From contig NZ_CP107567.1 of NCBI RefSeq assembly GCF_025854275.1, forward strand, positions 3,348,001 to 3,412,000: 64,000 nucleotides of DNA, written 5' to 3'. The stretch is from Streptomyces peucetius (GTDB lineage Bacteria > Actinomycetota > Actinomycetes > Streptomycetales > Streptomycetaceae). The position numbers were made by a program, and so were the translations under genes. Below the pieces are notes generated by a model. The model had not been told where the DNA came from, made no database searches, and worked only from the letters and a program-made list of their open reading frames with translations. The stretch's first letter is position 1. Each line of letters opens with the position of its first letter. Below, in pieces: positions 31,664-60,646 of this stretch.

Positions 31664-31680
31664 TCTGACGCTCCGTCAGA
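31664..31680. promoter_or_regulatory. Palindromic operator, shared consensus CTGACG-N3-CGTCAG
   Basis: TCTGACG-CTC-CGTCAGA is a perfect 7-3-7 palindrome in the divergent promoter region between the EthD-like gene and the SDR gene, 27 bp before the SDR start. It matches four more sites between 56 and 61 kb. Confidence 0.75.
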
Positions 31681-31707
31681 CAATCCGCCAGCCTGGGGAG
31701 GCGCCGG

Positions 31708-32490
31708 ATGCTGCTCCAGGGCAGGACCGTCATCGTGTCCGGCGTCGGCGCCGGGCTCGGCCACCAGGTCGCGGCAACGGTCGTCGGGAACGGCGGCAAC
31801 GCCGTCCTCGGCGCGCGTACGGAGGCGAGTCTGGCCGCGTCCGCCCGCGAGAGCGACCCCGGCGGCACCCGTACCGCGTACCGGGTCACCGACATCACCG
31901 ACGAGACGCAGTGCGAGGCTCTGGCTGCACTCGCACTGGAGCGCTTCGGACGTATCGACGCCGTGGTGCACGTCGCCGCGTGGGACAGCTGCTTCGGCGG
32001 CCTCCAGGACGCGGACTTCGCGACCTGGCAGGGCGTTCTGGACGTCAACCTGCTCGGCACACTGCGGATGACGCGCGCCTGCCTGCCGGGGCTCAAAAAG
32101 CGCGGCGGTGCAGTGGTGTTCATCGGCACCCAGTCGGCGGTGGCCGCGCCCTCGCAGGTGCGGCACGCGGCCTACGCCGCGTCCAAGGGGGCGCTCACCT
32201 CCGCGATGTACTCCCTGGCGCGAGAACTCGGCCCCGACCGGATCCGGGTGAACACGGTGCTGCCGGGCTGGATGTGGGGGCCGCCGGTACGGGCGTACGT
32301 CCGGTCCGCCGCCCGCGCCGAAGGGGTGCCGGAGGCCGAGGTGCTCGGGCGGCTCACGGGGCGGGTGGCGCTGCCCGACCTGGCCACGGACCGGGACGTC
32401 GCCGAGGCGGCCGTGTTCCTGGCCTCCGACCGCGCCCGCTCGATCACGGGCCAGTCGCTGCTCGTCAACGCGGGCGAACTGATGAGGTGA
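31708..32490 (+). CDS. Short-chain dehydrogenase/reductase
   Basis: 260 residues from ATG 31708 with GGGGAGG upstream. Classical SDR features: nucleotide-binding glycine motif SGVGAGLG (~11-18), a modified NNAG segment (HVAA), catalytic Ser in FIGTQSA, and Y156-x3-K160 in AAYAASKGA. The C-terminus has PGWMWGPPVR and SITGQSLLVNAGE. Substrate unknown; the oxidised alcohol or reduced ketone probably belongs to the pathway run by the regulon defined by the shared operator. A terminator follows. Confidence 0.9.
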   Translation: MLLQGRTVIVSGVGAGLGHQVAATVVGNGGNAVLGARTEASLAASARESDPGGTRTAYRVTDITDETQCEALAALALERFGRIDAVVHVAAWDSCFGGLQDADFATWQGVLDVNLLGTLRMTRACLPGLKKRGGAVVFIGTQSAVAAPSQVRHAAYAASKGALTSAMYSLARELGPDRIRVNTVLPGWMWGPPVRAYVRSAARAEGVPEAEVLGRLTGRVALPDLATDRDVAEAAVFLASDRARSITGQSLLVNAGELMR

Positions 32491-32511
32491 CAGACGCTCT
32501 CGACGCGGCGG

Positions 32512-32540
32512 GGCCGCACCGGCACACTTCCGGTGCGGCC
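32512..32540 (+). terminator. Terminator of the SDR gene
   Basis: GGCCGCACCGG (32512-32522) pairs perfectly with 32530-32540 around a 7-base loop and is followed by TCCTTTTC. Confidence 0.85.
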
Positions 32541-32652
32541 TCCTTTTCACCCTTCTATCGGTCAAGGATGTGAATCCAAGTCATCAAGAAGAACGATTTT
32601 ACTCGGCCTTGACCTGTAGATCCGTTGTTCTGACGCCCCGCCGGGTCCGACC

Positions 32653-32667
32653 ATGAACCGCGTTCAT
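32653..32667. promoter_or_regulatory. Palindrome before the symporter gene
   Basis: ATGAAC-CGC-GTTCAT is a perfect 6-3-6 palindrome 35 bp upstream of the symporter ATG, in an otherwise A/T-richer region. It differs from the CTGACG operator. Probable repressor site. Confidence 0.55.
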
Positions 32668-32702
32668 AAGACGGACCGGACCCCGGACCCCCTGGAGGGG
32701 AC

Positions 32703-34256
32703 ATGAACAGTCTCGACTGGGCCGTGCTCATCGGCTACTTCGGTGTGATGGTCGCGATCGGAGTCTGGTCCCACAAGCGGGTGGACGACGTCAGCGACTT
32801 CTTCACCGCCGGCGGCAAGATGCCGTGGTGGCTGTCCGGCATCTCGCACCACATGTCGGGCTACAGCGCGGTGATGTTCACCGGCTACGCGGCCATCGCC
32901 TACACCTATGGCGTCACGTCGTACGTCACCTGGTCCTTCCCCATCGCCATCGGCATCGCGATCGGCGCCAAGCTGTTCGCGCCCCGGCTCAACCGGGTGC
33001 GGTCGCGGCTGCACGTCGCCTCGCCGCTCGAATACCTCAAGAACCGCTACGACCTGCCCACCCAGCAGGCGCTCGCCTGGTCGGGCGTCCTGCTGAAGAT
33101 CGTCGACGTCGGCGCCAAATGGGCTGCCATCGCCACCCTCCTCTCCGTCTTCACCGGTGTCTCCCTCAACATGGGCATCCTGATCACCGGCGCCGTCACC
33201 GCCGTCTACTGCACCGTCGGCGGGCTGTGGGCCGACGCCCTCACCGAACTGGGCCAGTTCGTCATCCAGTTCGTCGCCGGTATCGCCATGCTCGTCGCCG
33301 TCATGGCCGAACTGGGCGGCTTCAGCAGCCTGTGGACCGTGTGGGACGAGCCCGAACTCGCGGGCCACGCGAAGCCGCTCGCCGGCCCGTACATGATGGT
33401 GTTCCTGATCGCGTACCTCTTCATCAAGACCTTCGAGTACAACGGCGGCATGTGGAACCAGGCCCAGCGCTACATGGCCACCGACTCCGCAAGGTCCGCA
33501 CAGCGCTCCGGCGTCCTGTCCGCCGTGCTGTGGCTGGTCTGGCCGGCCGTGCTCTTCTTCCCCATGTGGGTCGCCCCGCTGCTCATCGAGACCGACAAGC
33601 CCGCCGACAGCTACGCGCTGATGGCGGAACAGCTGCTGCCGCACGGCCTGCTGGGCCTGGTCATCGTCGGCTTCTTCTCCCACACGATGGCCATGTGCTC
33701 CTCCGACGCCAACGCCATCGCAGCGGTCGTCACCCGCGACATCATGCCCGCGCTGTCACGCAAGGCCCGCGAATGGGACACCCGCCTCGGGCTGCTCGCC
33801 GCCCGCTGGACCACGCTCCTCTTCCTCGGCCTGTCGATGGCCATCGCGACCCAGGTCAATTCGCCGTTCTTCGGCGACATCATCACCGTCGTCATCAAGT
33901 GGGTGGCGGGCCTCATGGGTCCGATCGCGATCCCGCTGATGCTGGGCCTGCTGCCGTGGTTCCGCAAGAGCGGGCCGACCGCGGCGCTGCTCAGCTGGGG
34001 CGTCGGACTGGTCACCTTCTGGCTGGTCAACTACCCGATCAGCTGGCAGGTCGAGGGCGGTGTGCCGCTCCAGTACCAGGTGTCCGTGCCGCTCGTGGTG
34101 TCGCTCGTCCTCTACGTCGTCGTCGGCTGGATCAAGCCGGAGGACACACCGGAGCGGGACGAGGTCCTGGCGAAGATCAACGACGACGACAGCGGCGACA
34201 CCGGAGCGGTGGCCCTGGTCCCCGCCCCGCCCGAGCGGGAGGCCACGGCCAGCTGA
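32703..34256 (+). CDS. Sodium:solute symporter (SSS family)
   Basis: 517 residues from ATG 32703 with GGAGGGG upstream. About 13 hydrophobic helices. It begins like SSS transporters (DWAVLIGYFGVMVAIGVWSH) with the family pattern FFTAGGKMPWWLSGISHHMS and GYSAVMFTGYAAIAYTYG. EYLKNRYDLPTQQ and FFSHTMAMCSSDANAIAAV are also family-typical. A hydrophilic acidic tail closes it. Substrate cannot be read from sequence; sugars, organic acids or nucleobases are usual. It sits alone between the SDR terminator and a convergent gene, with its own palindrome. Confidence 0.9.
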   Translation: MNSLDWAVLIGYFGVMVAIGVWSHKRVDDVSDFFTAGGKMPWWLSGISHHMSGYSAVMFTGYAAIAYTYGVTSYVTWSFPIAIGIAIGAKLFAPRLNRVRSRLHVASPLEYLKNRYDLPTQQALAWSGVLLKIVDVGAKWAAIATLLSVFTGVSLNMGILITGAVTAVYCTVGGLWADALTELGQFVIQFVAGIAMLVAVMAELGGFSSLWTVWDEPELAGHAKPLAGPYMMVFLIAYLFIKTFEYNGGMWNQAQRYMATDSARSAQRSGVLSAVLWLVWPAVLFFPMWVAPLLIETDKPADSYALMAEQLLPHGLLGLVIVGFFSHTMAMCSSDANAIAAVVTRDIMPALSRKAREWDTRLGLLAARWTTLLFLGLSMAIATQVNSPFFGDIITVVIKWVAGLMGPIAIPLMLGLLPWFRKSGPTAALLSWGVGLVTFWLVNYPISWQVEGGVPLQYQVSVPLVVSLVLYVVVGWIKPEDTPERDEVLAKINDDDSGDTGAVALVPAPPEREATAS

Positions 34257-34353
34257 CGCGCCCGGGGTGCGGGTGACCGTCCCGTCGGGGCGGTCTCCGG
34301 CACCGCGGCGATCCACGACGGTCTCGCCGCAGCGACGCCGTCGGACGACCTCG

Positions 34354-34905
34354 TCAGACGACTTCGTAGGTCAGGTGGGTCGCCGTCGACGTCGGGAGCA
34401 CAGTCCGCTGCACCAGCGTGCGCGGCGCTCCGCCGGTGAACAGCGGCGTCCCGGCGCCCAGCACGACGGGCGCGAGGTGCAGCGACAGCGCGTCGACCAG
34501 CCCGGCGACGACCGCCGAGCCGACGGTGGCGCCGCCGCCCATGAGGACGGCGTCGGACAGACCGGTGGTGACGAACGTCCAGTCGAGGTCGGTGAGCCTC
34601 ACCGACTCCGGCGGCGAACTCGTCACGACGACGAACGGGGGCTTCCCGACCTCGTCGGCGCCGTAGCCGATCTCGTCGTTCCAGCCGTTCGGACCGTCGA
34701 CCACGTCGAAGAGCCGGCGCCCGAGGACGACGGCGCCCGAACGGGCGGTCGCCTCGCGCAGGACCCGGCGGTCGTCCGGGTCGCCGGAGAACACCCAGGT
34801 GTGCAGGGCCTCGCCTCCGGTGCCCAGACCGTTGTCCGGGCCGGGGTCGGGCCCGGTGACGAAGCCGTCGAGGGAGACCGAGATGTCCGCGATGATTCGA
34901 GTCAT
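34354..34905 (-). CDS. Dihydrofolate reductase/RibD C-terminal-like protein
   Basis: 183 residues from ATG 34905. The family pattern is RIIADISVSLDGFVTGPDPG, AVVLGRRLFDVVDGPNGWND, TSSPPESVRL, VLMGGGATVGSAVVAGLVD and LAPVVLGAGTPLF. These DHFR-fold proteins bind NADPH; most members outside riboflavin and folate synthesis have no known substrate. It converges with the symporter gene. Confidence 0.88.
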   Translation of the reverse strand: MTRIIADISVSLDGFVTGPDPGPDNGLGTGGEALHTWVFSGDPDDRRVLREATARSGAVVLGRRLFDVVDGPNGWNDEIGYGADEVGKPPFVVVTSSPPESVRLTDLDWTFVTTGLSDAVLMGGGATVGSAVVAGLVDALSLHLAPVVLGAGTPLFTGGAPRTLVQRTVLPTSTATHLTYEVV

Positions 34906-35061
34906 ACCAGGGCAGACCGGGTCCGCCGCCAGAACTCATCGCTCAAACGAAGCGGGTTCGAGACGCAGGCGAAGGCCTCGGCGAAAGCGGCCGGCCTCCG
35001 CACTGCGATGCGATGCGGCTGCGCGGTCATCGCCCGGCGACGCACACGCGAGAGACCGGGA

Positions 35062-36189
35062 CTAGGTCAGTTCGGCCGCGCCCCGCGGGTACCGCTGCAA
35101 CCAGCCCGGGGCCGTCGCCGTCGGACTGTGCAGCGCCGGGCCCTGGGTCATCTCCATCGCGAAGTCGTCCGCGATCTCCAGCAGCGTCGGACGCCCCTCC
35201 AGCTCGCACAGCCACGCCGGCGGCAGCGCGGTCTCCCCGTGCAGCGCCCCCAGCAGCGCGCCGCAGACCGCGCCGGTCACCTCGGAGGGGCCGTCGTGGT
35301 TGACGGCGAGCCGCAGCCCGTGCCGGACGTCCTCGCCGACGAGGGCGCAGTAGACGGCGATCGCGAGGCCGTTCTCCGCGAGGTGCGCCTCACCGAGGGA
35401 GGCGACCCGGGCCGGGCTCGGAATGCCTTGCCGTACGGCTCCGAGCGCCTCCTTGAGCGCGTCCGTGACCGGCTGGTGCCCCGGCCGGGACGCCAGCTCC
35501 GCCAACGCCCGCTGCACCGAGCCGTCCAGCGTCTCGCCACGGGCCAGCCCGTGCACGACGACGGCGAACGCGCCGGCCGACAGGTACCCGGTCGGATGCC
35601 CGTGCGTCTGCGCCGCGCACTCGACGGCGAGCTGGCACACCAGCTGCGGCTCCCAGCCCACCAGCAGACCGAACGGCGCCGACCGCACCAGCGCCCCCGC
35701 GTCCCGCGCGGTCGGGTTCTTGGGGGCCTGCAAGGTGCCCATGCTCTCGTCAGCGAGACCGGTGACGGTGTCGCGGGACGGGTTGCGCCGACTGTAGAGC
35801 CACTCCTCGTGGGCGAGCCAGCCGTTGTCCTTGCGGCGCTCGTCGGGACCCCAGTCGCGCTGGGTCGCGGCCCACCGCAGATACGCGCGGTGCACATCGG
35901 TCGGCGGGTGCCAGGCGCCCGTGTCACGCCGCACCTGCGCCCGTATCAGCCCGTCGACGGTGAAGAGCGTGAGCTGCGTGGCGGCCGTGACCGCGCCCCG
36001 GCGGCCGTTGACGGGGGTGAGGTCGGTCAGGCCCTCCGGCCCGTGGACGGCGCGGATCTCGTCGAGGGTGAGTCCGCCGACACCGGCGCCCAGCGCGTCG
36101 CCGACGGCGCCTCCGAGCAGCGCTCCGCGCACCCTCGCGCGGAAGTCCTGCTGCTCGGCACGGCCCCACACTGCTGTGGCTGCGCTCAC
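35062..36189 (-). CDS. ADP-ribosylglycohydrolase-family protein with altered metal site
   Basis: 375 residues from GTG 36189 (GGGAGGAGAGCG directly upstream; 36 codons further upstream lack similarity). The first motif is normal: VRGALLGGAVGDALGAGVGG. Middle helices match the fold (LTLFTVDGLIRAQVR, YLRWAATQRDWG). The second acidic motif, usually GDSDS or GGDTDT before TGA, here reads NHDGPSEVTGAVCGALLGAL, so at least two metal-binding acids are missing. The family removes ADP-ribose from proteins or small molecules using two Mg ions. This copy may be inactive or have changed chemistry. Confidence 0.85.
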   Translation of the reverse strand: MSAATAVWGRAEQQDFRARVRGALLGGAVGDALGAGVGGLTLDEIRAVHGPEGLTDLTPVNGRRGAVTAATQLTLFTVDGLIRAQVRRDTGAWHPPTDVHRAYLRWAATQRDWGPDERRKDNGWLAHEEWLYSRRNPSRDTVTGLADESMGTLQAPKNPTARDAGALVRSAPFGLLVGWEPQLVCQLAVECAAQTHGHPTGYLSAGAFAVVVHGLARGETLDGSVQRALAELASRPGHQPVTDALKEALGAVRQGIPSPARVASLGEAHLAENGLAIAVYCALVGEDVRHGLRLAVNHDGPSEVTGAVCGALLGALHGETALPPAWLCELEGRPTLLEIADDFAMEMTQGPALHSPTATAPGWLQRYPRGAAELT

Positions 36190-36408
36190 CGCTCTCCTCC
36201 CCCACGTCGTCCGGACGAACCCTGCCCGGCCCAGCACTGTAATCGAACGGTAAAGGGCGTCTCGGGGCGCACGGAAGGACCCCCGTGGGGATCGCACGGG
36301 TATGTCGCGTGACGCCGACAGGCGCCGCTTACCGCCTGATTCGTCCGCGAACGGCCAGGAGCGCGCGGGCGGGCGGGCCGGGTTCGTTCCCGACGTGATC
36401 CCGGCCCG

Positions 36409-36436
36409 GCCGCCCGTGGTGCAGGAGCCGGGCGGC
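36409..36436 (-). terminator. Terminator candidate of fbiC
   Basis: GCCGCCCG (36409-36416) pairs with 36429-36436 around a 12-base loop, 17 bp past the fbiC stop. No T-run. Confidence 0.45.
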
Positions 36437-36453
36437 GAGGCGGGGCGGGGCGT

Positions 36454-39051
36454 TCACTCCGGCAGCAGCGGCAGCAGCTCCGGGAGGTGCCCGTCGGACG
36501 CGCGCGCCGTGTCCTGCCGCTCGGCCGGGACCTCGCCGTACAGGGTCGTACGCGGCTTCGCCGGACGGCCGGCGGCCTCCGCGATGGCGGTGAGGTCGCG
36601 GACGGAGCGGTACGAGCCGTAGCCGGAGCCGGCCATCCGGGAGATGGTCTCCTCCATCAGGGTGCCGCCGAGGTCGTTGGCCCCGGAGCGGAGCATCTCC
36701 GCCGCGCCCTTGGTGCCGAGCTTCACCCAGCTGGTCTGGATGTTGGTGATGTGCGGGTGGAGGAGGAGGCGGGCCATCGCGGTGACCGCCCTGTTGTCGC
36801 GGGTGGTCGGGCCCGGCCGGGCGATGCCGGCCAGATACACGGGCGCGTTGGTGTGGATGAAGGGCAGCGTCACGAACTCGGTGAAGCCGCCGGTCTCCTG
36901 CTGGATCCCGGCGAGCGTACGGAAATGGCCGAGCCAGTGCCGGGGCTGGTCCACATGGCCGTACATCATCGTGGACGAGGACCGGATGCCCAGTTCGTGC
37001 GCGGTCCTCACCACCTCGATCCACGTGGCGGTGGGCAGCTTGCCCTTGGTGAGCACCCAGCGGACCTCGTCGTCGAGGATCTCCGCGGCCGTGCCCGGGA
37101 TCGAGTCGAGGCCCGCCTCCTTCGCCGCCGTCAGCCACTCGCGGATCGACATCCCGGTACGCGAGGCGCCGTTGACGACCTCCATGGGCGAGAAGGCGTG
37201 CACATGCATGCCCGGCACGCGTTCCTTGACGGCGCGCGCGATGTCGAAGTACGCGGTGCCGGGCAGGTCGGGGTGGATGCCGCCCTGCATGCACACCTCG
37301 ACGGCGCCGACGTCCCACGCCTGCTCGGCCCGGTCCGCGACCTGGCCGAGCGAGAGCGAATAGGCGTCGGCGTCGCTGCGCCGCTGGGCGAAGGCGCAGA
37401 AACGGCAGCCGGTGTAGCAGACGTTGGTGAAGTTGATGTTCCGCGTGACGATGTAGGTGACGTCGTCGCCGACGACGTCACGTCGCAGCTCGTCGGCGAT
37501 GCGGGTCAGCGCGTCGAGGGCGGGGCCGTCGGCGTGCAGGAGTGCGAGGGCCTCGTCGTCCGTGAGCCGGGTGGGATCGTCGGCGGCGGTGCCGAGGGCA
37601 GCCTTCAGGTCCGTGTCGATGCGCTGCGGCACCATGCCGGGCGCGGCGGCCTCGCGGAGCGCGTCCCAGTCGCCGTAGACGTGGTCGAAGTCGTCACGGC
37701 GGTCGTGGGTGCGGCCGTCGGTGTCGATGGTCCGGTGCAGGTCCGTGCGGCCGGTGGCGGTGAAGCCCTCGTCGGGCTCCTGCCACGGCAGGCCGGCCGG
37801 GAACGCGTCCGTCTTCGCGAGACCGGTCTCCGCGTCGGCCAGTGCCCGTACGTGCGGCAGCACCCGCGGGTCGAGCCACGGCTCGCCGCGCCGCACGAAC
37901 TCCGGGTACACGCAGAGACGTTCGCGCAGCTCGAACCCCTCGGCGGCGGACCGCGCCGCGAGCTCGTCGATCTGCGGCCAGGGCCGTTCGGGGTTGACGT
38001 GGTCGGGGGTCAGCGGGGACACGCCGCCCCAGTCGTCGATCCCGGCGCGGATGAGCCGTCCGTACTCGGCGTCCACCAGGTTCGGCGGGGCCTGGAGACA
38101 GGCGGAGGGCCCCATGATGTGCCGGGCCACGGCCACGGTGGCGACGAGTTCGTCGAGCTCGGCGTCCGGCATGCCCCGCATGACCGTGTCCGGCTTGGCA
38201 CGGAAGTTCTGCAGGATCAGCTCCTGGATCGCGTGGTACGCGCGGGAGACGCGGCGCAGCGCGAACAGCGACTCGGCCCGCTCCTCGTACGTCTCGCCGA
38301 TCCCGATGAGCAGCCCGCTCGTGAACGGCACCGAGCTGCGTCCCGCGTCCTCCAGCACCCGCAGCCGCACAGCCGGCTCCTTGTCGGGCGAGCCGTGGTG
38401 CGGGCCGCCCGGCTCGGACCACAGCCGGGTCGCGGTCGTCTCCAGCATCATGCCCATGGACGGCGCGACGGGCTTCAGCCGCTGGAAGTCGGTCCAGGAC
38501 AGCACCCCGGGGTTGAGGTGGGGCAGCAGCCCGGTCTCCTCCAGGATCCGGATCGACATGGCCCGTACGTACGCGATCGTGTCGTCGTACCCGTGCGAGT
38601 CGAGCCATTCGCGGGCCTCGGGCCAGCGGTCCTCGGGCTTGTCCCCGAGCGTGATCAGCGCTTCCTTGCAGCCGGCCGCCGCTCCGCGCCGGGCGATCTC
38701 CAGCACCTCGTCCGGCGACATGAACGCCCCGTGGCCCGCGCGCCGGAGCTTGCCGGGGACGGTCGCGAAGGTGCAGTAGTGGCACTTGTCCCGGCACAGG
38801 CGGGTGAGCGGGACGAACACGCTCTTCGAGTACGTGATGACCCCGGCGCGCCCGGCGGCCTCCAGCCCCGCGTCCCGCACGCGCGCGGCGGACGCCGCCA
38901 GGTCCTCCAGGTCGGCCCCCCGCGCCTGCAACAGCACGGCGGCCTCGGCCACATCGAGCGCGACCCCGTCCCTGGCCCGCTTCAGCGCGCGGCGCATCGC
39001 ATTCTCTGTGGGCCGTACTGAAGAACTTGGTCCGCCCTGGTGATCGGTCAT
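36454..39051 (-). CDS. fbiC: FO synthase, fused CofG-CofH (7,8-didemethyl-8-hydroxy-5-deazariboflavin synthase)
   Basis: 865 residues from ATG 39051. Two radical-SAM halves: the CofG-like half has C86-x3-C90-x2-C93 in [11 protein letters not shown], and the CofH-like half C545-x3-C549-x2-C552 in [11 protein letters not shown]. Each binds a 4Fe-4S cluster and SAM. Together they join tyrosine with the riboflavin precursor 5-amino-6-ribitylamino-uracil to make FO, the chromophore of cofactor F420. Both halves keep the barrel features ([41 protein letters not shown]). Full length for the actinobacterial fusion. LLM-class oxidoreductases in this window are possible F420 users. Confidence 0.96.
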
Positions 39052-39266
39052 GCGTCGAGCATACGAGCGGCCGCCGACGCCCCGGCCGGGACCGTACGGA
39101 GTCGGCCGGGTACCGGCGTCGCGTCCAGGCCGTTCCGGCCGTTCACCCTAACCAGCGTATTCACGCCCCGGCCCGTGGCGAAAGCCGCAGGTGAGGAAAC
39201 CATCTGGCTGGCCCGTCCGACCCGGGGGGCCACCACTGTGTTTCTCTCCGCCGAAAGGTTCACAGC

Positions 39267-49583: not shown

Positions 49584-49636
49584 GTCTCTTCACCGCCGGT
49601 GTGCGGCCCGCCGTGCGGGCTGCGCGAGGCGGCCCC

Positions 49637-52904: not shown

Positions 52905-54640
52905 CTGGTCGACACCGTCCTCGTGTCCCGGCCGGAGCGGAGCACCGTGCCCGGCACCGCCCCGGTGACCACGTCGTTCCGTATGGTCTCCACCCCGTTG
53001 ACGCGGACCGACACGATGCCGACCGCCTTCGCGTCCAGCCGCGGGCTGTCGCCCGGCAGATCGTGCACCAGCGTCGCCGGGCCCGCGTCGATGCGCTCCG
53101 GATCGAAGAGGACGAGATCCGCGTAGTGGCCCTTGACGACCCGGCCCCGGTCGCGCAGGCCGAAAAGGCGCGCCGGGTCGTCGGTGAGCATCTTCACCGC
53201 CGCCTCGAGCCCGACCAGTCTCCGGCCGCGCAGACAGTCGCCGAGGAACCGCGTCGTGTACGGGGCGCCGCACATCCGGTCCAGATGCGCGCCGGCGTCC
53301 GACCCGCCGAGCAGCACGTCCTCGTGCTGCCAGGTCTCGGCACGCAGGGCCCACGAGTCGGGGTCGTTGTCGGTGGGCATGGGCCACAGGACCGTGCGCA
53401 GATCGTCGGCGGCGCAGATCTCGACCAGGCACTCGAACGGGTCCTGGCCGCGCTCCGCGGCGATCTCACCGACGACCCGGCCGGTCAGGCCCGCGTTCCG
53501 CGGGGTGTACGTGTCCCCGATGACGTAACGGCCGAAGTGCGCGAGGCGGCGGAAGACGCCGGCCTCCCTGGAGTCGGCCCGCCGCAGCATCTCGGCCCGC
53601 ACGGCCGGATCACTCAGCTTTTCGATCCGCCGCGGCACGGGCAGCGACAGGATCTCGCCCCAGCCGGGGATCAGATTGAGAGCGCAGAACGTGCCCAGCG
53701 ACATGTTCATCGGCGTCAGGATCGGCATGGTGAGCGCGACGATCCGCCCACCGGCCTTACGGGCCCGCTCGGACGGGACCAGCTGGCGGGGCACGCGCTC
53801 GGGTACGGCGGCGTCGACGGTGAGCACGTTCCAGTTGAGCGGCCGTCCCGCGGCGGCGCTCATCTCGACGAGCAGATCGATCTCGTCGTCCTCGAACCGG
53901 TCGAGACAGCCGGCGACGATCGCCTCCAGCTGCGTCCCCTCGTGCTCGCCGACGGCCCTCGACAGGGCGAGCAGCTCCTCCGGGAGGGCGTGCCGGGAGG
54001 CGACGGGCCGGCCGTCACCGTCGGAGTGGGTCGAGGACTGGGTCGTCGACAGTCCCCACGCGCCGGCGTCCATGGCGTCGTGCAGCAGCGCCACCATCTC
54101 CTGGAGCTGCGCGGGGCTCGGCCGCCCGCCGATCGCGTCCGGGCCCATCACATGCCGGCGCAGCGCGCAGTGCCCCACCATGAATCCCGCGTTGACGGCT
54201 GTGCGGCCGTCGAGGGCGTCCAGGTACTCGCCGAAGGTGTGCCAGTTCCACGGGGCGCCCTGTTCGAGCGCCACGAGGGACATGCCCTCCACCTTCGACA
54301 TCATCCGGCGCGTGTAGTCGGCGTCACCGGGCCGGTTCGGGTTGAGGGGGGCGAGGGTGAAGCCGCAGTTGCCCCCGGCGACGGTCGTGACGCCGTGGTT
54401 CAGGGACGGGGTGGCGTACGGGTCCCAGAACAGCTGGGCGTCGTAGTGGGTGTGCGGATCGACGAACCCGGGGGCGAGGACGAGCCCGGTGGCGTCCTCG
54501 TCGGTCGCCGCCGCGGGAGCGTGTCCGGGCTCCGCGATGACGGCGATGCGGCCGTCGCCGCCGATGCCGACGTCCGCGGCGCGGGCGGGGGCGCCGGTGC
54601 CGTCGACGACGGTCGCGTTACGGATGAGGTGGGCGAGCAT
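52901..54640 (-). CDS. N-acyl-D-amino-acid deacylase/D-aminoacylase-family amidohydrolase
   Basis: 579 residues from ATG 54640. Amidohydrolase_3 features: LIRNATVVDGTGAPARAADV, APGFVDPHTHYDAQLFWDP (HxH metal site), GVTTVAGGNCGFTLAP, GHCALRRHVMG, LGGSDAGAHLDRMCGAPY (metal Asp) and KGHYADLVLFDPERI. Hydrolyses an N-acyl bond, releasing an amino acid or amine; stereochemistry cannot be read. The start of a unit with the aldehyde dehydrogenase and perhaps the permease. Confidence 0.9.
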   Translation of the reverse strand: MLAHLIRNATVVDGTGAPARAADVGIGGDGRIAVIAEPGHAPAAATDEDATGLVLAPGFVDPHTHYDAQLFWDPYATPSLNHGVTTVAGGNCGFTLAPLNPNRPGDADYTRRMMSKVEGMSLVALEQGAPWNWHTFGEYLDALDGRTAVNAGFMVGHCALRRHVMGPDAIGGRPSPAQLQEMVALLHDAMDAGAWGLSTTQSSTHSDGDGRPVASRHALPEELLALSRAVGEHEGTQLEAIVAGCLDRFEDDEIDLLVEMSAAAGRPLNWNVLTVDAAVPERVPRQLVPSERARKAGGRIVALTMPILTPMNMSLGTFCALNLIPGWGEILSLPVPRRIEKLSDPAVRAEMLRRADSREAGVFRRLAHFGRYVIGDTYTPRNAGLTGRVVGEIAAERGQDPFECLVEICAADDLRTVLWPMPTDNDPDSWALRAETWQHEDVLLGGSDAGAHLDRMCGAPYTTRFLGDCLRGRRLVGLEAAVKMLTDDPARLFGLRDRGRVVKGHYADLVLFDPERIDAGPATLVHDLPGDSPRLDAKAVGIVSVRVNGVETIRNDVVTGAVPGTVLRSGRDTRTVSTR

Positions 54641-55167
54641 GGCGTCCCCTTCTGCGCGTGCTGGGTGGGGCGGGCGGTGCGGGCGCCGTCGGCGCGGGCG
54701 GGCCGGTACGGGCGGCGGTCCGGGAAGACGCCGTCCGCGTGGTGGGGGCGGGGGTGGGCCGCTGCGCGGGGCCTTGCCCCCTCCCCGCCCCTTCCCGAAA
54801 CCGGGGGGCTCCGCCCCCCGGACCCCGGTGCCGCCCTGCGGGCGGTGTTCGGGCTCCGCCCTGAGACCCGGTCCACCCTGCGGGCGGCGTACCGCGCTTC
54901 GCGCGGTGGCCTCAATCTCCCCCTACGGCCTGGCGGCCGTGGGAGGTACCCCAGCCGGGCTGGATATGCCGCTGCGCGGCACCAGCCCGCCGGGCGGGGC
55001 ACATCCAGCCCCGCCGCCGATTGAGGCGCGGGGCTCGGGGCGGAGCCCCGACAAGACCGGCAAGTTCCAGCCCCTCCGGCGTTTGAGGCGCGGGGGCCCG
55101 GGGGCGGAGCCACGGGGAACGGGTCCGGGCGGAGCCCGGTTTCGGGAAGGGGCAGGCAGGGGAAAGG
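54641..55167. repeat. Intergenic repeat block, bounded by a 19-bp inverted repeat
   Basis: No gene. 54787-54805 and 55135-55153 are perfect inverted copies (GCCCCTTCCCGAAACCGGG). Inside are GGGGCGGAGCCCC-type hairpins, a pair of direct repeats containing TTGAGGCGCGGGG (about 55,020 and 55,082), and CATCCAGCCCCGCCG. These are the kind of dispersed intergenic repeats scattered in Streptomyces chromosomes. Confidence 0.75.
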
Positions 55168-56292
55168 TCACGCTCCCGCAGACTCGCGGAACCTCGTCGT
55201 CCGGTGGACCGGGTCCGTGTCGATCTGCGGGATCACGTGCTCGCCGATCAGCCGGATCGTCGTCATCGTGTCCTCGTACGACACCCCGATCGGCAGGCCG
55301 AACGACAACTGGTCCGCTCCCGCCTGCTCCCACCGTTTGCACTGCTGCAACACCTCCCCCGGGTCGCCGCAGATCATCAGTTCCTCGGATATCAGCAGCT
55401 CGATGATCTCCGCCGTGTACTCCGGCAGCAGCTCCGGCCATTCCGGGACGCCCTCCGGACGCGGGAAGGTGTCGTGGTAGCGGAACAGCAGCGACTGGAG
55501 GTAGTTGAGGCCGCCGGAGACCGCGATCCCGACGGCCTTGTCGTGTGTCTCCGCGCAGATCGCCGTCGACGTCACCATCACGTTGTCGTTGACGAACGCG
55601 CCGACCGCCTTCGCGTCCTTGACAGCCGTCTTGTACGACTCGAGGACCCACTCCATGTCGGAGACCTTCTGGACGCTGAAGCCCAGCACCCCGAGGCCCT
55701 TCTTGCCGGCCATGGCGTACGAAGACGGCGACCCGGCGGCGTACCACATCGGCGGGTGGGCGGGCCCGTACGGTTTCGGGAGGACCTTCCGCGGCGGCAG
55801 CGACCAGTGCTTGCCCCGGAACCCGGCGTACTCGTCCTGGAGCCACATCTTGGGGAACTCGGCGATCGTCTCTTCCCAGATCTCCTTGGTGTGGTTCATG
55901 TCGGTGATGCCCGGCATGAATCCGAGGATCTCGTGCGACCCGGCGCCCCGCCCCGAGCCGAACTCGAAGCGGCCCTCCGACAGATGGTCGAGCATCGCGA
56001 CCTTCTCGGCGACCTTGACCGGGTGGTTGACGGGCGCGAGGGGGTTGAAGATCCCTGATCCCAGGTGGATCCGATCCGTGGCATGCGCGAGGTAGCCGAG
56101 GAAGACGTCGTTGGCCGACAGATGGGAGTACTCCTCCAGGAAGTGGTGCTCGGAGGCCCAGGCGTACTTGAACCCGGACCTGTCCGCCTGGATGACGTAC
56201 TCGGTCTCCTCCATCAGCGCCTTGTGCTCGGCGAGCGGGTCGGTCTCGGCGCGCTTGCCGAGGTAGCCCTGAACAAAGAGCCCGAATTCCAC
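55168..56292 (-). CDS. LLM-class flavin-dependent oxidoreductase
   Basis: 374 residues from GTG 56292 with AAGGCGG upstream. Bacterial luciferase-like barrel: EFGLFVQGYLGKRAETDPLA, YVIQADRSGFKYAWASEHHF, LSANDVFLGYLAHATDRIHL, HLSEGRFEFGSGRGAGSHEI, GVLGFSVQKV. It may use FMNH2 or F420; substrate unknown. Two palindromes of the shared type lie upstream (56341-56355 and 56403-56417), the nearer 49 bp before the start, so repression by the common regulator is likely. Confidence 0.9.
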   Translation of the reverse strand: MEFGLFVQGYLGKRAETDPLAEHKALMEETEYVIQADRSGFKYAWASEHHFLEEYSHLSANDVFLGYLAHATDRIHLGSGIFNPLAPVNHPVKVAEKVAMLDHLSEGRFEFGSGRGAGSHEILGFMPGITDMNHTKEIWEETIAEFPKMWLQDEYAGFRGKHWSLPPRKVLPKPYGPAHPPMWYAAGSPSSYAMAGKKGLGVLGFSVQKVSDMEWVLESYKTAVKDAKAVGAFVNDNVMVTSTAICAETHDKAVGIAVSGGLNYLQSLLFRYHDTFPRPEGVPEWPELLPEYTAEIIELLISEELMICGDPGEVLQQCKRWEQAGADQLSFGLPIGVSYEDTMTTIRLIGEHVIPQIDTDPVHRTTRFRESAGA

Positions 56293-56340
56293 AGGGATTC
56301 ACCGCCTTGTCGGTTCCGTCTGTTCCACTCACCGCAATAG

Positions 56341-56355
56341 ATGACGATCCGTCAG
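56341..56355. promoter_or_regulatory. Operator site of the shared type
   Basis: ATGACG-ATC-CGTCAG; inner TGACG/CGTCA arms are perfect. In the 121-bp gap upstream of the LLM gene. Confidence 0.7.
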
Positions 56356-56402
56356 TTTCGGATGCGGTCGACTGTTCCACCGGGCATCCGCACAGTCAAT
56401 AG

Positions 56403-56417
56403 CTGACGAGCCGTCAG
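56403..56417. promoter_or_regulatory. Operator site of the shared type
   Basis: CTGACG-AGC-CGTCAG, perfect 6-3-6. It overlaps the stop codon (56414-56416) of the upstream SDR gene; a further half site GCTGACG lies at 56423-56429. Confidence 0.75.
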
Positions 56418-57166
56418 AAAATGCTGACGCCCGCCAGCCAGCCGCCGTCGATCACGAACGGCTGGCCGGTGATGTACGAGGAGTCCTCGCCGGTCAGGAA
56501 GAGCGCGAGCTTCGCGACCTCCTCCGCCCGCCCGACCCTGCCGAGCGGCACCAGCGTGCGGTACAGGCCCTCGATCGCGTCCGGGTCCGTGCCCTCCGGG
56601 TTGCTCATCGGCGTGTCCACGGCCCCGGGGCACACGGCGTTGACCCGGATCCGCTTCGCCGCGAGCTCCAGCGCCGCGACTCTCGTCAGGCCGAGGATCG
56701 CGTGCTTGGACGCGGCGTAGGCACCGACGCCCGCCATGCCGGTGAGTGCCGTGTACGACGCGGTGTTGACGATCGTGCCACCGCCCGCGGCCTCGATCTC
56801 GGGGGCGACGCTGCGGATGCCGAGGAAGGTGCCGATCTGGTTGACCTGCGTGATCAGCTGGAACTCCTCCAGCGGCGTGGAGACCAGTTCGTTGAAGCGC
56901 AGGATGCCCGCGTTGTTGACGAGACCGTCGATCTTGCCGAAGGCGTCCTTCGCGGCGGCGACGGCAGCGGCCCAGTCGGCCTCCCGCCCCACGTCGAGGT
57001 GGACGTAGCGCCCGCCGACCTCCTTCGCGAGCGGTTCGCCCAGCTCGTCGAGCACGTCCGCGAGGACGACCTTCGCGCCTTCCGCCGCGAACAGCCTGGC
57101 CTCCTGCTCCCCCTGCCCGCGCGCCGCGCCCGTGACGAGGACGACGCGTCCGTCCAGCTTGCCCAT
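56414..57166 (-). CDS. Short-chain dehydrogenase/reductase
   Basis: 250 residues from ATG 57166. Classical SDR: VTGAARGQGEQEARLFAAEG (nucleotide motif TGxxxGxG-type), NNAGI, catalytic Ser in NTASYTALTG, Y150-x3-K154 in GAYAASKHA, and C-terminal PGAVDTPM and ITGQPFVIDGGW. The gene starts 15 bp after the LLM gene at 57,182, so the two form an operon led by the operator at 58133-58147. Likely oxidises an alcohol intermediate. Confidence 0.92.
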   Translation of the reverse strand: MGKLDGRVVLVTGAARGQGEQEARLFAAEGAKVVLADVLDELGEPLAKEVGGRYVHLDVGREADWAAAVAAAKDAFGKIDGLVNNAGILRFNELVSTPLEEFQLITQVNQIGTFLGIRSVAPEIEAAGGGTIVNTASYTALTGMAGVGAYAASKHAILGLTRVAALELAAKRIRVNAVCPGAVDTPMSNPEGTDPDAIEGLYRTLVPLGRVGRAEEVAKLALFLTGEDSSYITGQPFVIDGGWLAGVSIF

Positions 57167-57181
57167 GCCTGCTCTCCCTGG

Positions 57182-58102
57182 TCAGTCGAGGTGCGGGGCC
57201 ACGCCGGCGGCGAACGCCGCCATCTGGTCGGTGAGTTCGGTGACGCTCCGGCTGCGGAAGCGGACCTGGATCTGGTGCACGCCCATCACCGCGTAGGCGC
57301 GCAGCGACTCGGCGAGCGCCGCCGGCTCGCCGGTGAGCGTCCGGCGGCCGACGGACCACGCCGGTTCGCCGACGTACAGGGGCTCGGTGATGGCGCCGAT
57401 CGTGAGGGGCGCCTCGATCCCGGCCGCCTCCCGCAGGGCGCGCACCTTCGCGATCTGCGCGGGGAGCCTGTCGCGGGGGTCACCCTGCGGCAGCCAGCCG
57501 TCCCCCTTGAGCGCCGCCCGGCGCACGGCGGCGGGCGAGGACCCGCCGACCCAGACCGGGACGCGGGGCTGGACGGGACGCGGCCGCTGCCCCAGGTCCT
57601 TGAAGGCGAACCGCTCCCCGCTGAACTCCGGGTACTCCTCCGGTCCCAGCGCTGCCCGCAGCGCGTCGATGCTCTCGTCGAGTACGGCCCCACGCGCGTC
57701 GAAGTCGGCCCCCAGGGCCTCGAACTCCTCGCGCACGTGCCCGGCACCGACCCCCAGGACCAGCCGCCCGCCGGAGAGGTGGTCGAGGGTCGCGTACTGC
57801 TTGGCAATCAGCAGGGGGTGGCGCAGCCCGACGACCGCGACATGGCTCAGCAGCCGCACCCGTTCGGTCACGCCGGCGAGGAAGGCCAGTGTGGCCACCG
57901 GGTCGTACCAGACGGTGGACATGGCGTCCGCGAGACGCCGCGGAATGGCGACGTGGTCGCAGACGGCGACGTACGAGAAACCGGTCCGGTCCGCGGTCCC
58001 GGCTATCCCGGCGAGGTCCTCCGGACCGGCCTCGACCTCCCAGGGTTCCGCGTAGAGGGTGCTCTGCGACTGGACCGGAAGCTGCATCCCGTAGGCGACC
58101 AT
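57182..58102 (-). CDS. LLM-class F420-dependent oxidoreductase
   Basis: 306 residues. ATG 58102 is chosen because GAGAGG lies upstream and VAYGMQLPVQSQS fits the family start. Barrel signatures: RTGFSYVAVCDHVAIPRRLA, LAFLAGVTERVRLLSHVAVV, HPLLIAKQYATLDHLSGGRL, LGVGAGHVREEF, VWVGGSSPAAVRRAA. This subgroup is expected to bind F420. The operator CTGACG-GTG-CGTCAC lies 30 bp upstream. Operon with the SDR that follows. Confidence 0.9.
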   Translation of the reverse strand: MVAYGMQLPVQSQSTLYAEPWEVEAGPEDLAGIAGTADRTGFSYVAVCDHVAIPRRLADAMSTVWYDPVATLAFLAGVTERVRLLSHVAVVGLRHPLLIAKQYATLDHLSGGRLVLGVGAGHVREEFEALGADFDARGAVLDESIDALRAALGPEEYPEFSGERFAFKDLGQRPRPVQPRVPVWVGGSSPAAVRRAALKGDGWLPQGDPRDRLPAQIAKVRALREAAGIEAPLTIGAITEPLYVGEPAWSVGRRTLTGEPAALAESLRAYAVMGVHQIQVRFRSRSVTELTDQMAAFAAGVAPHLD

Positions 58103-58132
58103 GGGGGACCTCTCGCATCTGACGGCCATATC

Positions 58133-58147
58133 TGACGGTGCGTCACG
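58133..58147. promoter_or_regulatory. Operator site of the shared type
   Basis: CTGACG-GTG-CGTCAC, one mismatch from the consensus. Lies between the thioesterase stop and the LLM start; another half site (CTGACGG) is at 58120-58126. Confidence 0.7.
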
Positions 58148-58201
58148 TCGGGGTCATCGTCGACGCTTCCGCCGCATCAGGCAAGAGGCCCGGCCCCGAC
58201 C

Positions 58202-58615
58202 TCACCCCATCAGCGCGTACACCGTCGACGCCCGGGCCGCCGGTTCCGGCGCCCCCTCGGCGGTCATCGTGATCTCGGCGAACGCCATGCGCTTGCCGAG
58301 CTTGGTGATCCGCGCGTCCACCAGCACGTCGGCGCCGACGACCGCACGCTGGAAGGTGGTGGACTGCTGGACGGTCGTCATGGGCACGAAGGAGCCGCGC
58401 GCCGACGCGACGGCGATCACGGTCGCGGTGTCGGCGGCGGCCATCAGCGCCTGTCCGCTCAGCCCCCCACCCTCGCGGGCCAGCCGGTCGGACCAGGGCA
58501 GCCGCAGCACGGCATGCAGGTCGCCCGCCTCCTGGACGGACAGCCCGAGTTCCAGCACCCAGGGGGCGAAGTTGTCGGCGAGGATCTTGTCTGCTTCAAC
58601 GAGGGAGAGCGTCAT
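58202..58615 (-). CDS. PaaI-type hotdog-fold thioesterase
   Basis: 137 residues from ATG 58615. Hotdog pattern: LGLSVQEAGDLHAVLRLPWS, EGGGLSGQALMAAADTATVI, AVASARGSFVPMTTVQQSTT, FQRAVVGADVLVDARITKLG, MAFAEITMTAEG. Members hydrolyse acyl-CoA thioesters; a canonical catalytic HxxxG-type residue set is replaced by GGGLSG, so the exact chemistry is open. It is the gene upstream of the operator and LLM/SDR operon and may feed the same pathway. Confidence 0.82.
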   Translation of the reverse strand: MTLSLVEADKILADNFAPWVLELGLSVQEAGDLHAVLRLPWSDRLAREGGGLSGQALMAAADTATVIAVASARGSFVPMTTVQQSTTFQRAVVGADVLVDARITKLGKRMAFAEITMTAEGAPEPAARASTVYALMG

Positions 58616-58757
58616 GCCCCGATGGTGCCGGGCCGCAGTGCGCCGCGGTAGCGGCCCGGCTCACACGGAGGCGCCTCCCTGGGGGATTCCGCCACTCGTG
58701 TCGAGACGGACCACTCCGCTGAGTATCGACCGGCCCGCAACGCGAGGGAGGCGCATC

Positions 58758-59357
58758 ATGACGGTGATGCGGGAACGCCCGACGACAGACGGCACCGACC
58801 CCCGCCGCTTCGAGGAGCTGTGCGAAGCCCTCGACGAGCTGAACGTGCCCGCCGGATTCAGCGCCGAGATCATCAGAGGGAACATCGTCGTGTCACCACG
58901 ATCGAAGGCGTATTACCTCGACGTCATGGACCTGCTCTGCGACCAGCCGCGTCCCCGCCTTCCGGAGGGTCACCGGATCAGCTCCGCTCACGCGCTGTAT
59001 CTGTTCCCCGGCGTGGAGCGGGCATACGGGCCCGACATCCACGCGGCTCATCGCCGGACCCGCCGGACGACGAGCCGCCACCTGGACGGGGAAGGGCTTT
59101 CCTTCGTTGCCGAGTTGACCTCTCCCTCGACGCGCGACGACGACCTCACCGACAAGGCCGAGCGCTACGGCAAGGCCGGTGTTCCTGTCTACCTTCTGCT
59201 CGACATGCAGGAGGACAGCGCCACCGTCTTCTGGTCGCCGACCGAGAAGGGCTACGCCTCTCACCTCACCGTGCCCTTCGGCGAGAAAATCCACATTCCC
59301 GCTCCGTTCGACTGCCACGTCGACACGACCGGATTCCAGGCGCCCACCGCGAGCTGA
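58758..59357 (+). CDS. Uma2-family (PD-(D/E)xK-like) protein
   Basis: 199 residues from ATG 58758 with GGGAGG six bases upstream. Features: RFEELCEALDELNVPAGFSA, EIIRGNIVVSPRSKAYYLDV, AYGPDIHAAHRR, FVAELTSPSTRDDDLTDKAE, RYGKAGVPVYLLLDMQ. The nuclease-like D...ExT core is only partly kept (the ExK Lys is replaced). It is distinct from the Uma2 protein at 19,942. Role unknown; it interrupts the run of catabolic genes on the opposite strand. Confidence 0.87.
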   Translation: MTVMRERPTTDGTDPRRFEELCEALDELNVPAGFSAEIIRGNIVVSPRSKAYYLDVMDLLCDQPRPRLPEGHRISSAHALYLFPGVERAYGPDIHAAHRRTRRTTSRHLDGEGLSFVAELTSPSTRDDDLTDKAERYGKAGVPVYLLLDMQEDSATVFWSPTEKGYASHLTVPFGEKIHIPAPFDCHVDTTGFQAPTAS

Positions 59358-59390
59358 CGCAGGTCTGCACCGGACCCTCAACGCGGTCGG

Positions 59391-60611
59391 CTACGGCCCC
59401 GGCCACAGGCCGTCGTCCGTGAGGCCCAGCAGGTCGATCGCGTTGCCGCGGACGATCCGTTCGACCACGTCCTGCGGCAGGTGCCCCATCTGGGACTCGC
59501 CGACCTCCCTCGACTTCGGCCAGGTCGAGTCCGAGTGCGGGTAGTCCGTCTCGTACAGGACGTTGCCGACGCCGATCGCGTCAAGGTTCCGCAGGCCGAA
59601 CGGGTCGTCGAAGAAGCAGCCGTAGACGTGCTCCGCGAAGAGCTCGGACGGCGGCCGGGTGACCTTGTCCGCGACGCCGCCCCAGGCCCGGTTCTCCTCC
59701 CAGACGACGTCCGCGCGTTCGAGGATGTACGGGATCCAGCCGATCTGGCCCTCCGCGTACATGACCCGCAGGCCGGGGAAGCGTTCGAACTTGCCGCTCA
59801 TCAGCCAGTCGACCATCGAGAAGCAACAGTTGGCGAAGGTGATCGTCGAGCCCACGGCCGGCGGGGCGTCCGCCGAGGTGGAGGGCATCCGGCTGGAGGA
59901 GCCGATGTGCATGGCGACGACCGTGCCGGTCTCGGCGCACGCAGCGAGGAACGGGTCCCAGTCGTCGGCGTGGATCGAGGGGAGCCCCAGGTGCGGGGGT
60001 ATCTCGGAGAAGGCGACGGCGCGGACGCCGCGCGCCGCGTTGCGGCGGACCTCGGCGGCGGCCAGCTCCGCGTCCCACAGCGGGACGAGGGTCAGCGGGA
60101 CGAGCCGGCCCTGCGCCTCGGGGCCGCACCACTCCTCGACCATCCAGTCGTTGTACGCGCGCACGCCGAGCAGCCCGAGCTCGCGGTCGGCGGCCTCGGT
60201 GAAGGTCTGGCCGCAGAAGCGCGGGAACGTCGGGAAGCAGAGCGCGGACGTGACGTGGTTGAGGTCCATGTCGGCGAGGCGGTCGGGGACGCTGTACGAG
60301 CCGGGGCGCATCTGCTCATAGGTGATGATCTCCAGTCTGATCTCGTCGCGGTCGTGGCCGACGGCGGTGTCGAGCCGGGTGAGCGGCCGGTGCAGGTCCT
60401 CGTACACCCACCAGTCGCCGACCGGCCCTTCGTCGCCGGGTGCTCCCATCACGGGGGCGAACCTGCCGCCCAGGAAGGTCATTTCCTTCAGGGGCGCGCG
60501 GACGATGCGGGGCCCGGTGTCGGCGTATTTCGACGGGAGCCGGTCCCGCCAGACGCCGGGCGGTTCCACCGTGTGGTCGTCCACCGAAATGATCTTGGGG
60601 AAGGTCTCCAT
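59391..60611 (-). CDS. Amidohydrolase-family metal-dependent hydrolase/decarboxylase
   Basis: 406 residues. ATG 60611 starts ETFPKIISVDDHTVEPPGVW; the open frame upstream lacks similarity. Amidohydrolase_2 features: SVDDH (metal site at the first strand), CFPTFPRFCGQTF, VPLTLVPLWDAELAAAEVRR, TVVAMHIGSSSRMPS (His ligand) and NVLYETDYPHSDSTWP (final Asp and His). Related proteins are ring-opening hydrolases or non-oxidative decarboxylases. Operator CTGACG-GTT-CGTCAG lies 20 bp upstream of the start. Confidence 0.9.
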   Translation of the reverse strand: METFPKIISVDDHTVEPPGVWRDRLPSKYADTGPRIVRAPLKEMTFLGGRFAPVMGAPGDEGPVGDWWVYEDLHRPLTRLDTAVGHDRDEIRLEIITYEQMRPGSYSVPDRLADMDLNHVTSALCFPTFPRFCGQTFTEAADRELGLLGVRAYNDWMVEEWCGPEAQGRLVPLTLVPLWDAELAAAEVRRNAARGVRAVAFSEIPPHLGLPSIHADDWDPFLAACAETGTVVAMHIGSSSRMPSTSADAPPAVGSTITFANCCFSMVDWLMSGKFERFPGLRVMYAEGQIGWIPYILERADVVWEENRAWGGVADKVTRPPSELFAEHVYGCFFDDPFGLRNLDAIGVGNVLYETDYPHSDSTWPKSREVGESQMGHLPQDVVERIVRGNAIDLLGLTDDGLWPGP

Positions 60612-60631
60612 GGTTTCAAGGTAGCGCTGAT

Positions 60632-60646
60632 CTGACGGTTCGTCAG
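60632..60646. promoter_or_regulatory. Operator site of the shared type
   Basis: CTGACG-GTT-CGTCAG, perfect 6-3-6, directly upstream of the amidohydrolase start. Confidence 0.78.

Follow-up and report, generated by a model that had tools for sequence, protein, structure and literature searches.

Among described systems, the KstR2 regulon of Mycobacterium and Rhodococcus and the amidohydrolase-related dinuclear oxygenases (AROs) are two of the closest to the gene set considered here, which lies in and beside a 64,000-nucleotide stretch of the Streptomyces peucetius chromosome (NZ_CP107567.1, positions 3,348,001 to 3,412,000; hereafter the window) and is marked by copies of the palindrome CTGACG-N3-CGTCAG. 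The operator motif of KstR2 differs from this palindrome. The ARO family is defined in PMC10811679 (seen in part). PtmU3 is a beta-hydroxylase of diterpenoid biosynthesis that accepts coenzyme A (CoA)-ligated substrates, and the ligands of AibH2 are Asp25, His27, His211, Glu265, Asp337 and His340, with position 342 acidic only in members with a binuclear centre (both from parts of PMC7782822). In the open-access PMC literature, a scope to which subscription papers do not belong, we found no description of the operator motif spellings or of the regulon. The available portions of PMC3388012, PMC4810484, PMC5380842, PMC10401708 and PMC13176608 do not describe the operator, and a term search of the available main text of PMC13176608 returned no mention of TetR_C_38 or PF19352. 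On comparative sequence evidence, we consider it quite probable that CTGACG-N3-CGTCAG is the operator of a TetR_C_38 repressor over a CoA-dependent pathway for polycyclic isoprenoid acids.

The palindrome and a candidate TetR_C_38 regulator

The five sites of shared consensus claimed by the initial annotation are all present in the window (Table 1); three are exact, and the other two differ from the consensus at one outer base. Site C lies one base away from where it had been placed. Measured from the 13-base core, the nearest called start lies at 29 bp for SDR260, a short-chain dehydrogenase/reductase (SDR) gene, 103 bp for the divergent gene labeled "EthD-like", 49 and 111 bp for the luciferase-like (LLM) gene LLM374, 30 bp for LLM306, and 21 bp for the gene labeled an amidohydrolase, i.e., 21-111 bp where 20-110 bp had been claimed. 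These starts are approximate, coming from gene calling with a home-made GC-frame script. The described overlap of one site with a stop codon was also found. Scanning the window with up to three mismatches gave 57 matches, fewer than the shuffle mean of 73.9, and loose matches are therefore uninformative.

Across the 8.05-Mb chromosome, the exact 15-mer occurs at 10 sites (reversed pattern, 0) and the core TGACGN3CGTCA at 37 (reversed control, 2). Six of the 10 exact sites and nine of the 37 core sites fall within one 70-kb interval (3379665-3449558), with binomial P values of 9e-11 and 3e-11 for an interval that was picked after the data had been seen. Each of the nine clustered core sites is located between genes or at the end of one, faces a start codon at a distance of 19-111 bp, and precedes degradative-type genes, which together with the retention of sites in relatives bears out the proposal of one regulon with degradative content. 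That regulon would include the genes behind the five sites of the window and continue beyond it, with four more clustered sites at three promoter regions (those of the FadD3/Ltp2, FadE/thiolase and amidohydrolase-FadE-FadE/FadD genes) and a distant LLM gene. Among the other 28 core sites, only those at 2222935, 4088582 and 5948060 appear to belong; the remaining 25 were rejected as members, being in-gene, far from starts or hairpin-like as judged by eye. With so many of the 37 copies resembling chance occurrences or hairpins, presence of the motif is not enough to define the regulon. The outcomes that had been named as counting against a regulon, random genome-wide scatter or lack of conservation before orthologues, were not what we found for the clustered sites.

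As first noted, no regulator gene was found among the genes called in the window. A TetR-family protein, the type of regulator that had been suggested, is encoded 11.5 kb to its right and has two domains over cut-off, PF00440 (the TetR_N helix-turn-helix, E 5e-6) and PF19352 (TetR_C_38, E 1e-72); it is the single protein of its genome that matches PF19352 at E 0.001. One orthologue each was found in 39 of 41 relatives searched (25 of 25 in the genus, 14 of 14 in a second family, f3), the two without one being G013, which has 0 motif sites, and G040. The protein is present in 25/25 Streptomyces genomes of one sample and in 22/22 of another. A class-wide sample comprised 246 genomes, or 241 once five Sporichthyaceae were set aside. 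Here, PF19352 is found over cut-off in 27 of the 29 genomes with at least five sites and in 19 of the 212 with fewer, for a Fisher P of 3e-21 that overstates the association because related genomes are not independent. Within family f16 alone, it is found in 7/8 genomes with at least five sites (the eighth being 68% complete) and in 0/4 with 0-1 sites (P 0.01).

Among the TetRs examined, the recognition helix of the candidate, AGTSPATFYQYF, recurs unchanged in those of Streptomyces, in four from f3, in five from f16 and in three of the four from f20; the other f20 TetR has AGTSAATFYQYF and the f14 TetR AGTSSATFYQYF. Overall identity to the S. peucetius protein in these five groups is 47-64%. 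The TetR of the Sporichthyaceae (family f15) has VGTSPATFYQYF and is 39-43% identical. In four of five f16 loci, the TetR gene carries an exact core palindrome at its 5' end. In L218, the palindrome stands 16 bp before the ATG, and in L211, L212 and L213 it covers codons 4-8 of the longest plausible frame; at the same place, the fifth f16 locus (L219) has a two-mismatch copy and an f14 locus (L204) a one-mismatch copy. Two f3 genomes (G014 and G019) have the TetR gene inside a single 41-46-kb cluster that also carries six sites and a large part of this enzyme set.

Conservation of the sites and promoter anatomy

Footprinting in other Streptomyces, as the initial annotation had proposed, used the best 80 of 591 confirmed loci, 89-93% identical to the amidohydrolase and thus close relatives only (79 titled Streptomyces, one Actinobacteria bacterium). 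An exact core site stands 21-107 bp before the amidohydrolase start in 80/80 loci, with the spacer free. The core occurs 193 times in the 1.5 Mb of these loci, the reversed pattern not once. Spacing between half-sites is fixed, with 167 copies at N3 and 0-1 at each other spacing from 0 to 8. In 53 loci aligned at the palindrome, the information content was 2.00 bits at the twelve half-site positions, 0.5-1.0 bits in the spacer and mostly 0.1-0.6 bits in the flank more than 9 bases upstream.

For the other genes, sites were counted up to 200 bp before the start, leaving out matches below 60% identity and those with a truncated start or too short an upstream sequence. LLM374 orthologues have an exact core upstream in 41/49 cases and an exact or one-mismatch core in 49/49; the corresponding figures are 31/54 and 40/54 for LLM306, 1/51 and 48/51 for the FadD3 gene, and 1/48 and 48/48 for the Ltp2 gene. 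SDR250, second in its operon, gave 6/48 and 9/48, and a BTAD regulator used as a control gave 1/73 and 7/73. No site, exact or with one mismatch, precedes the orthologues of the DUF35 gene (0/42), the deacylase-like gene (0/44), the permease (0/17) or the thioesterase (0/8); for the aldehyde dehydrogenase, there is no exact site in 33 orthologues and a one-mismatch site in one. The suggested membership of the thioesterase, deacylase, aldehyde dehydrogenase and permease therefore found no support from sites of their own, and these four genes may instead be read through from the LLM374 promoter.

Family f3 belongs to the same taxonomic order as Streptomyces. Of its four clusters, three gave matches at an identity cut of 35%, and in these the genes for FadD3, Ltp2, FadE377, FadD498 and a 36%-identical thiolase each have an exact core upstream (3/3), as does the one "EthD-like" orthologue that passed the start filter (1/1). 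SDR260 has no exact site and 3/3 with one mismatch; the control cyclase likewise has none exact, yet 3/3 with one mismatch. The 62%-identical LLM374 orthologue has a site in 0/3, and a 47% paralogue has one. In family f20, sites adjoin an amidohydrolase gene whose product is 73-74% identical to a 398-aa paralogue of the window's 406-aa protein.

At the amidohydrolase promoter, the palindrome is followed by a -10-like element whose TAC..T is invariant in the 53 aligned loci, and a conserved ATCgGCGCTACCGT follows the palindrome directly before the ATG. The start codon comes 6 bases after this element, so that the mRNA would probably be leaderless, and the spacer is 17 bp if the half-site CTGACG serves as the -35. 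Of 334 oriented sites, 82 have TANNNT at offset 23, counted from the start of the site, and no other offset exceeds nine; the offset profile itself serves as the control. Because this count comes mostly from one promoter family, the promoter reading is firm for the amidohydrolase promoter only. In S. peucetius, the element reads TACCTT at the amidohydrolase promoter and TACGCT at the Ltp2 promoter; the other 16 site orientations lack it. With the palindrome overlapping a -35-like element at these two promoters, repression by occlusion is likely.

A mechanism can be proposed on this basis. A TetR dimer would sit on the palindrome, covering the -35-like element and the spacer at two promoters and blocking RNA polymerase, until released by a pathway intermediate that, by analogy with KstR2, is probably the CoA thioester of a ring acid. 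The derepressed genes would supply a CoA-dependent oxidative pathway with two acyl-CoA ligases, acyl-CoA dehydrogenases, a crotonase, SDRs and LLM/F420 oxidoreductases, in which the Ltp2-like thiolase fold and its ChsH2-type partner would carry out retro-aldol cleavage and two predicted amidohydrolase-fold dinuclear monooxygenases would act. Binding, repression and ligand are here deduced from sequence, as are the enzyme activities, which we assign by family.

Table 1. Proposed operator sites, predicted regulon genes and candidate regulator. Positions are on the window scale unless marked as genome positions.
Feature	Position	Strand	Details
Operator site A, CTGACGCTCCGTCAG	31665..31679	.	Exact; between divergent "EthD-like" gene and SDR260
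Operator site B1, ATGACGATCCGTCAG	56341..56355	.	One outer-base mismatch; upstream of LLM374
Operator site B2, CTGACGAGCCGTCAG	56403..56417	.	Exact; overlaps SDR250 stop codon (56414-56416)
Operator site C, CTGACGGTGCGTCAC	58132..58146	.	One outer-base mismatch; before LLM306-SDR250 operon
Operator site D, CTGACGGTTCGTCAG	60632..60646	.	Exact; before amidohydrolase gene
-10-like element TACCTT	60618..60623	-	17 bp after operator half-site CTGACG (would-be -35)
284-aa protein of unknown family ("EthD-like"), predicted regulon member	30708..31562	-	No Pfam/NCBIfam match
SDR260, SDR oxidoreductase (PRK07890 subfamily), predicted regulon member	31708..32490	+	326 bits, cut-off 258
LLM374, LLM-class oxidoreductase, 374 aa	55168..56292	-	PF00296
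SDR250, SDR oxidoreductase, 250 aa, gene 2 of LLM-SDR operon	56414..57166	-	Family profile match
LLM306, F420-dependent LLM oxidoreductase (TIGR03619/Rv2161c family), 306 aa	57182..58102	-	238.8 bits, curated cut-off 166.9
PF04909 protein, 406 aa, predicted amidohydrolase-fold dinuclear monooxygenase (DitZ/PtmU3-like)	59391..60611	-	PF04909, metal-ligand pattern
Candidate regulator, TetR-family protein with TetR_C_38 domain	genome 3423507-3424154 (window scale 75507-76154)		11.5 kb right of window
Genome site 3379666	genome 3379666		"EthD-like" gene and SDR260
Genome sites 3404342 and 3404404	genome 3404342, 3404404		LLM374
Genome site 3406133	genome 3406133		LLM306-SDR250
Genome site 3408633	genome 3408633		Amidohydrolase
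Genome site 3420444	genome 3420444		FadD3-family ligase; Ltp2-like thiolase-DUF35-crotonase
Genome site 3430915	genome 3430915		Acyl-CoA dehydrogenase and F420H2-quinone reductase-like gene; thiolase-like gene
Genome sites 3449472 and 3449545	genome 3449472, 3449545		Amidohydrolase-FadE-FadE; AMP ligase
Genome site 2222935	genome 2222935		Exact; LLM336, distant LLM gene
Genome site 4088582	genome 4088582		One mismatch in 15-mer; acyl-CoA dehydrogenase
Genome site 5948060	genome 5948060		One mismatch in 15-mer; SDR

Enzymes and likely substrate class

The label "amidohydrolase" is right as to fold, since the 406-aa protein belongs to PF04909, which also holds the AROs; by its sequence, the protein is more likely a dinuclear monooxygenase. 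Its nearest solved structures are DitZ (PDB entry 8uyr, E 3e-57) and PtmU3 (6omp, E 7e-36), which are also the nearest to the 398-aa paralogue. By motif and by alignment to PtmU3, it keeps D11, H13, H235, E287, D356, H359 and D361, and the ARO ligand pattern D-x-H, H, E, D-x-x-H-x-D is found in both paralogues and in 80/80 loci. DitZ, identified here by its PDB name alone, may itself be an ARO, and "Dit" presumably refers to diterpenoid degradation. The ligase at 3420444 is of the FadD3 family (817 bits), and the thiolase-fold protein matches 6ok1 ("Lipid-transfer protein", E 3e-100), which we take to be Ltp2. Given the ARO likeness to DitZ and PtmU3, the Ltp2/ChsH2-type proteins and the FadD3-family ligase, polycyclic isoprenoid (diterpenoid- or steroid-like) carboxylic acids are the most likely substrate class.

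The name "EthD-like" could not be upheld: the protein matches no Pfam or NCBIfam family at E 0.001. It has 1654 homologues, the 120 listed being unnamed, "hypothetical" or "uncharacterized", and its predicted structure is a low-confidence model (pLDDT 50). A homologue search found its family in regulon loci of f3 and f20 as well. For LLM306, gene 1 of the LLM-SDR operon, an alternative upstream ATG at 58129 is possible. The acyl-CoA dehydrogenase gene at 4088582 adjoins a gene group that resembles, by eye, the phenylacetate (paa) operon. At genome positions 3413477-3418807, between sites of the regulon, lies an operon of the kind that we take to be called a conservon, with a histidine-kinase-like ATPase, a roadblock protein, a DUF742 protein, a small GTP/ATP-binding protein and two P450-like genes; no core site stands in front of it.

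Alternative readings and comparison with known systems

In the Sporichthyaceae, all five genomes (G051, G073, G091, G107, G123) carry 109-218 exact copies of CTGACG-N3-CGTCAG, with 0-1 of the control. In the examined parts of G051, the N3 spacing accounts for 24 copies and other spacings for 0-1; of 44 copies placed against home-made gene calls, 23 are inside genes, 13 between convergent genes and 0 between divergent ones. Because 135 copies are scattered through G051, nucleoid occlusion of the SlmA type was considered for this genome. It was not supported: there is no clear depletion of sites opposite dnaA (1.79 Mb), as 35 of the 135 copies, by subtraction, lie beyond 3.81 Mb of 5.50 Mb, around the opposite point if the chromosome is circular. 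Sampled GC skew in G051 gave no clear origin or terminus.

Several findings weigh against the palindrome being the operator of the TetR_C_38 protein, in addition to the dependence among related genomes mentioned above. Two genomes, G188 (68% complete) and G190, have many sites and no TetR match, and 11 genomes with a near-full-length TetR carry fewer than five sites, two of them 0. The initial annotation had expected a TetR gene with the motif in its own promoter, and this holds at the 5' end in four of five f16 loci and not in Streptomyces or f3, where the TetR upstream region lacks a full palindrome in 29/29 loci (24 + 5; best copies with 3-5 mismatches), the half-site CTGACG abutting the ATG in 28 of the 29. 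In one f3 genus (g5; L222, L223), the TetR gene is located away from any site. Since the TetR gene was the starting point for picking the f14, f16 and f20 loci, the evidence there is not its presence but the sites next to it. The FadD3/Ltp2 promoter in most relatives carries one mismatch instead of the exact core, the bulk of the -10 count comes from orthologues of a single promoter, and the f3 clusters examined have no homologue of either amidohydrolase and an LLM306 match of only 34% identity. The missing palindrome in Streptomyces and the detached g5 gene would suit a different arrangement, with some other transcription factor on the palindrome and the TetR gene as no more than a linked passenger. 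We think this unlikely in view of the class-wide co-occurrence of TetR and sites, the palindromes at the TetR 5' end in f16, and the fact that, of all proteins called within a 204-kb region around the window, the TetR alone matches (E 1e-25) loci of all four other families (9/12 loci, partly chosen around the TetR). A structural role for the palindrome, as a terminator-like or genome-wide element and not as an operator, appears very improbable: the Sporichthyaceae copies, inside genes or mostly at convergent gene ends in the examined parts of one genome, and a few copies in S. peucetius that resemble terminator hairpins by eye are of the kind such an element would give, whereas the nine clustered sites face start codons at short range and the site before the amidohydrolase is kept in every footprinted locus with its spacer free.

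A further alternative, which we regard as doubtful, is a steroid-degradation regulon proper, with the TetR as the functional counterpart of KstR2 and the genes degrading hydrindane (HIP-like) acids. In f16 and f14, the TetR gene adjoins genes for an SDR, an EchA20-like protein, an IpdA/B-like CoA transferase and a FabK-like IpdC, with sites at the TetR 5' end or next to FadE genes; the IpdA-like protein has matches in 6co6 and 6con, which we take to be IpdAB, and the FadD3-family ligase and Ltp2/ChsH2-type genes of the proposed regulon fit as well. S. peucetius has an ipd/HIP-type locus at 428457-441315 encoding IpdC, IpdB, IpdA, EchA20-like, FadA6-like, KstR2 and acyl-CoA dehydrogenase proteins (names by eye except IpdA and KstR2), and its IpdA, at 430 kb, is 62% identical to the f16/f14 protein. 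Against a steroid regulon, this locus encodes its own KstR2 (E 8e-58 to PDB entry 4w1u) and holds no motif copy with fewer than two mismatches; the closest copy, with two mismatches, is at 431215, some 10 bp ahead of the IpdA start, and a weak link to the regulon is conceivable. Furthermore, 55 of 57 Streptomyces genomes are reported to lack the steroid pathway (PMC4810484, in part), and the available part of the KstR2 gene table in PMC5380842 lists no AROs or LLM enzymes. KstR2 itself was rejected as the regulator of the palindrome, the true KstR2 sitting in the separate ipd locus. The candidate TetR has no significant similarity to it (19% over 121 residues, E 0.28), and KstR2 is not among the candidate's 10 PDB matches at E 0.001. 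With TetR_C_38 beside ipd-type genes in f16/f14 and KstR2 in the ipd locus of S. peucetius, the regulator near similar genes differs between lineages.

Returning to the TetR_C_38 repressor, we offer a wider proposal as a tentative one, slightly short of an even chance in our estimation. TetR_C_38 and CTGACG-N3-CGTCAG would form an undescribed, ancient actinobacterial pair. In almost all Streptomyces, the pair would control a core pathway that depends on O2 and CoA, uses amidohydrolase-fold dinuclear monooxygenases and acts on polycyclic isoprenoid acids; in other families, it would have captured the ipd cluster in place of KstR2, and in the Sporichthyaceae its operator would have multiplied to more than 100 copies per genome. 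If true, a catabolic gene set lacking an assigned substrate would gain a regulator, an operator and a target list, the substrate question would become directly testable, the predicted amidohydrolase-fold dinuclear monooxygenases would be placed in a catabolic setting, and an exchange of regulators on the ipd cluster would be shown.

The candidate TetR bears some likeness to SlmA, the TetR-family nucleoid occlusion factor, in that the NCBIfam SlmA model matches it weakly (E 7e-7; 29 bits against a cut-off of 120) and, among the listed database names of its matches, one says SlmA and one "division inhibitor"; the palindrome sites differ in being promoter-proximal in Streptomyces. A likeness to the Ltp2-ChsH2 aldolase of steroid side-chain degradation lies in the thiolase-fold protein, after which come one carrying both ChsH2 domains and a crotonase; the difference is that the ChsH2-type partner here is a stand-alone 140-aa protein. 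Both PF04909 proteins of the proposed regulon keep the three histidines, three carboxylates and extra acid reported for dinuclear members of the group of PtmU3, AibH2, SfbO and, presumably, DitZ. With the KstR2 regulon, the proposed system would share a TetR repressor over acyl-CoA ring-degradation genes with a FadD3-type ligase and, in f16 and f14, ipd-type genes adjoining the TetR_C_38 gene; unlike it, the regulon proposed here contains predicted AROs and LLM enzymes.

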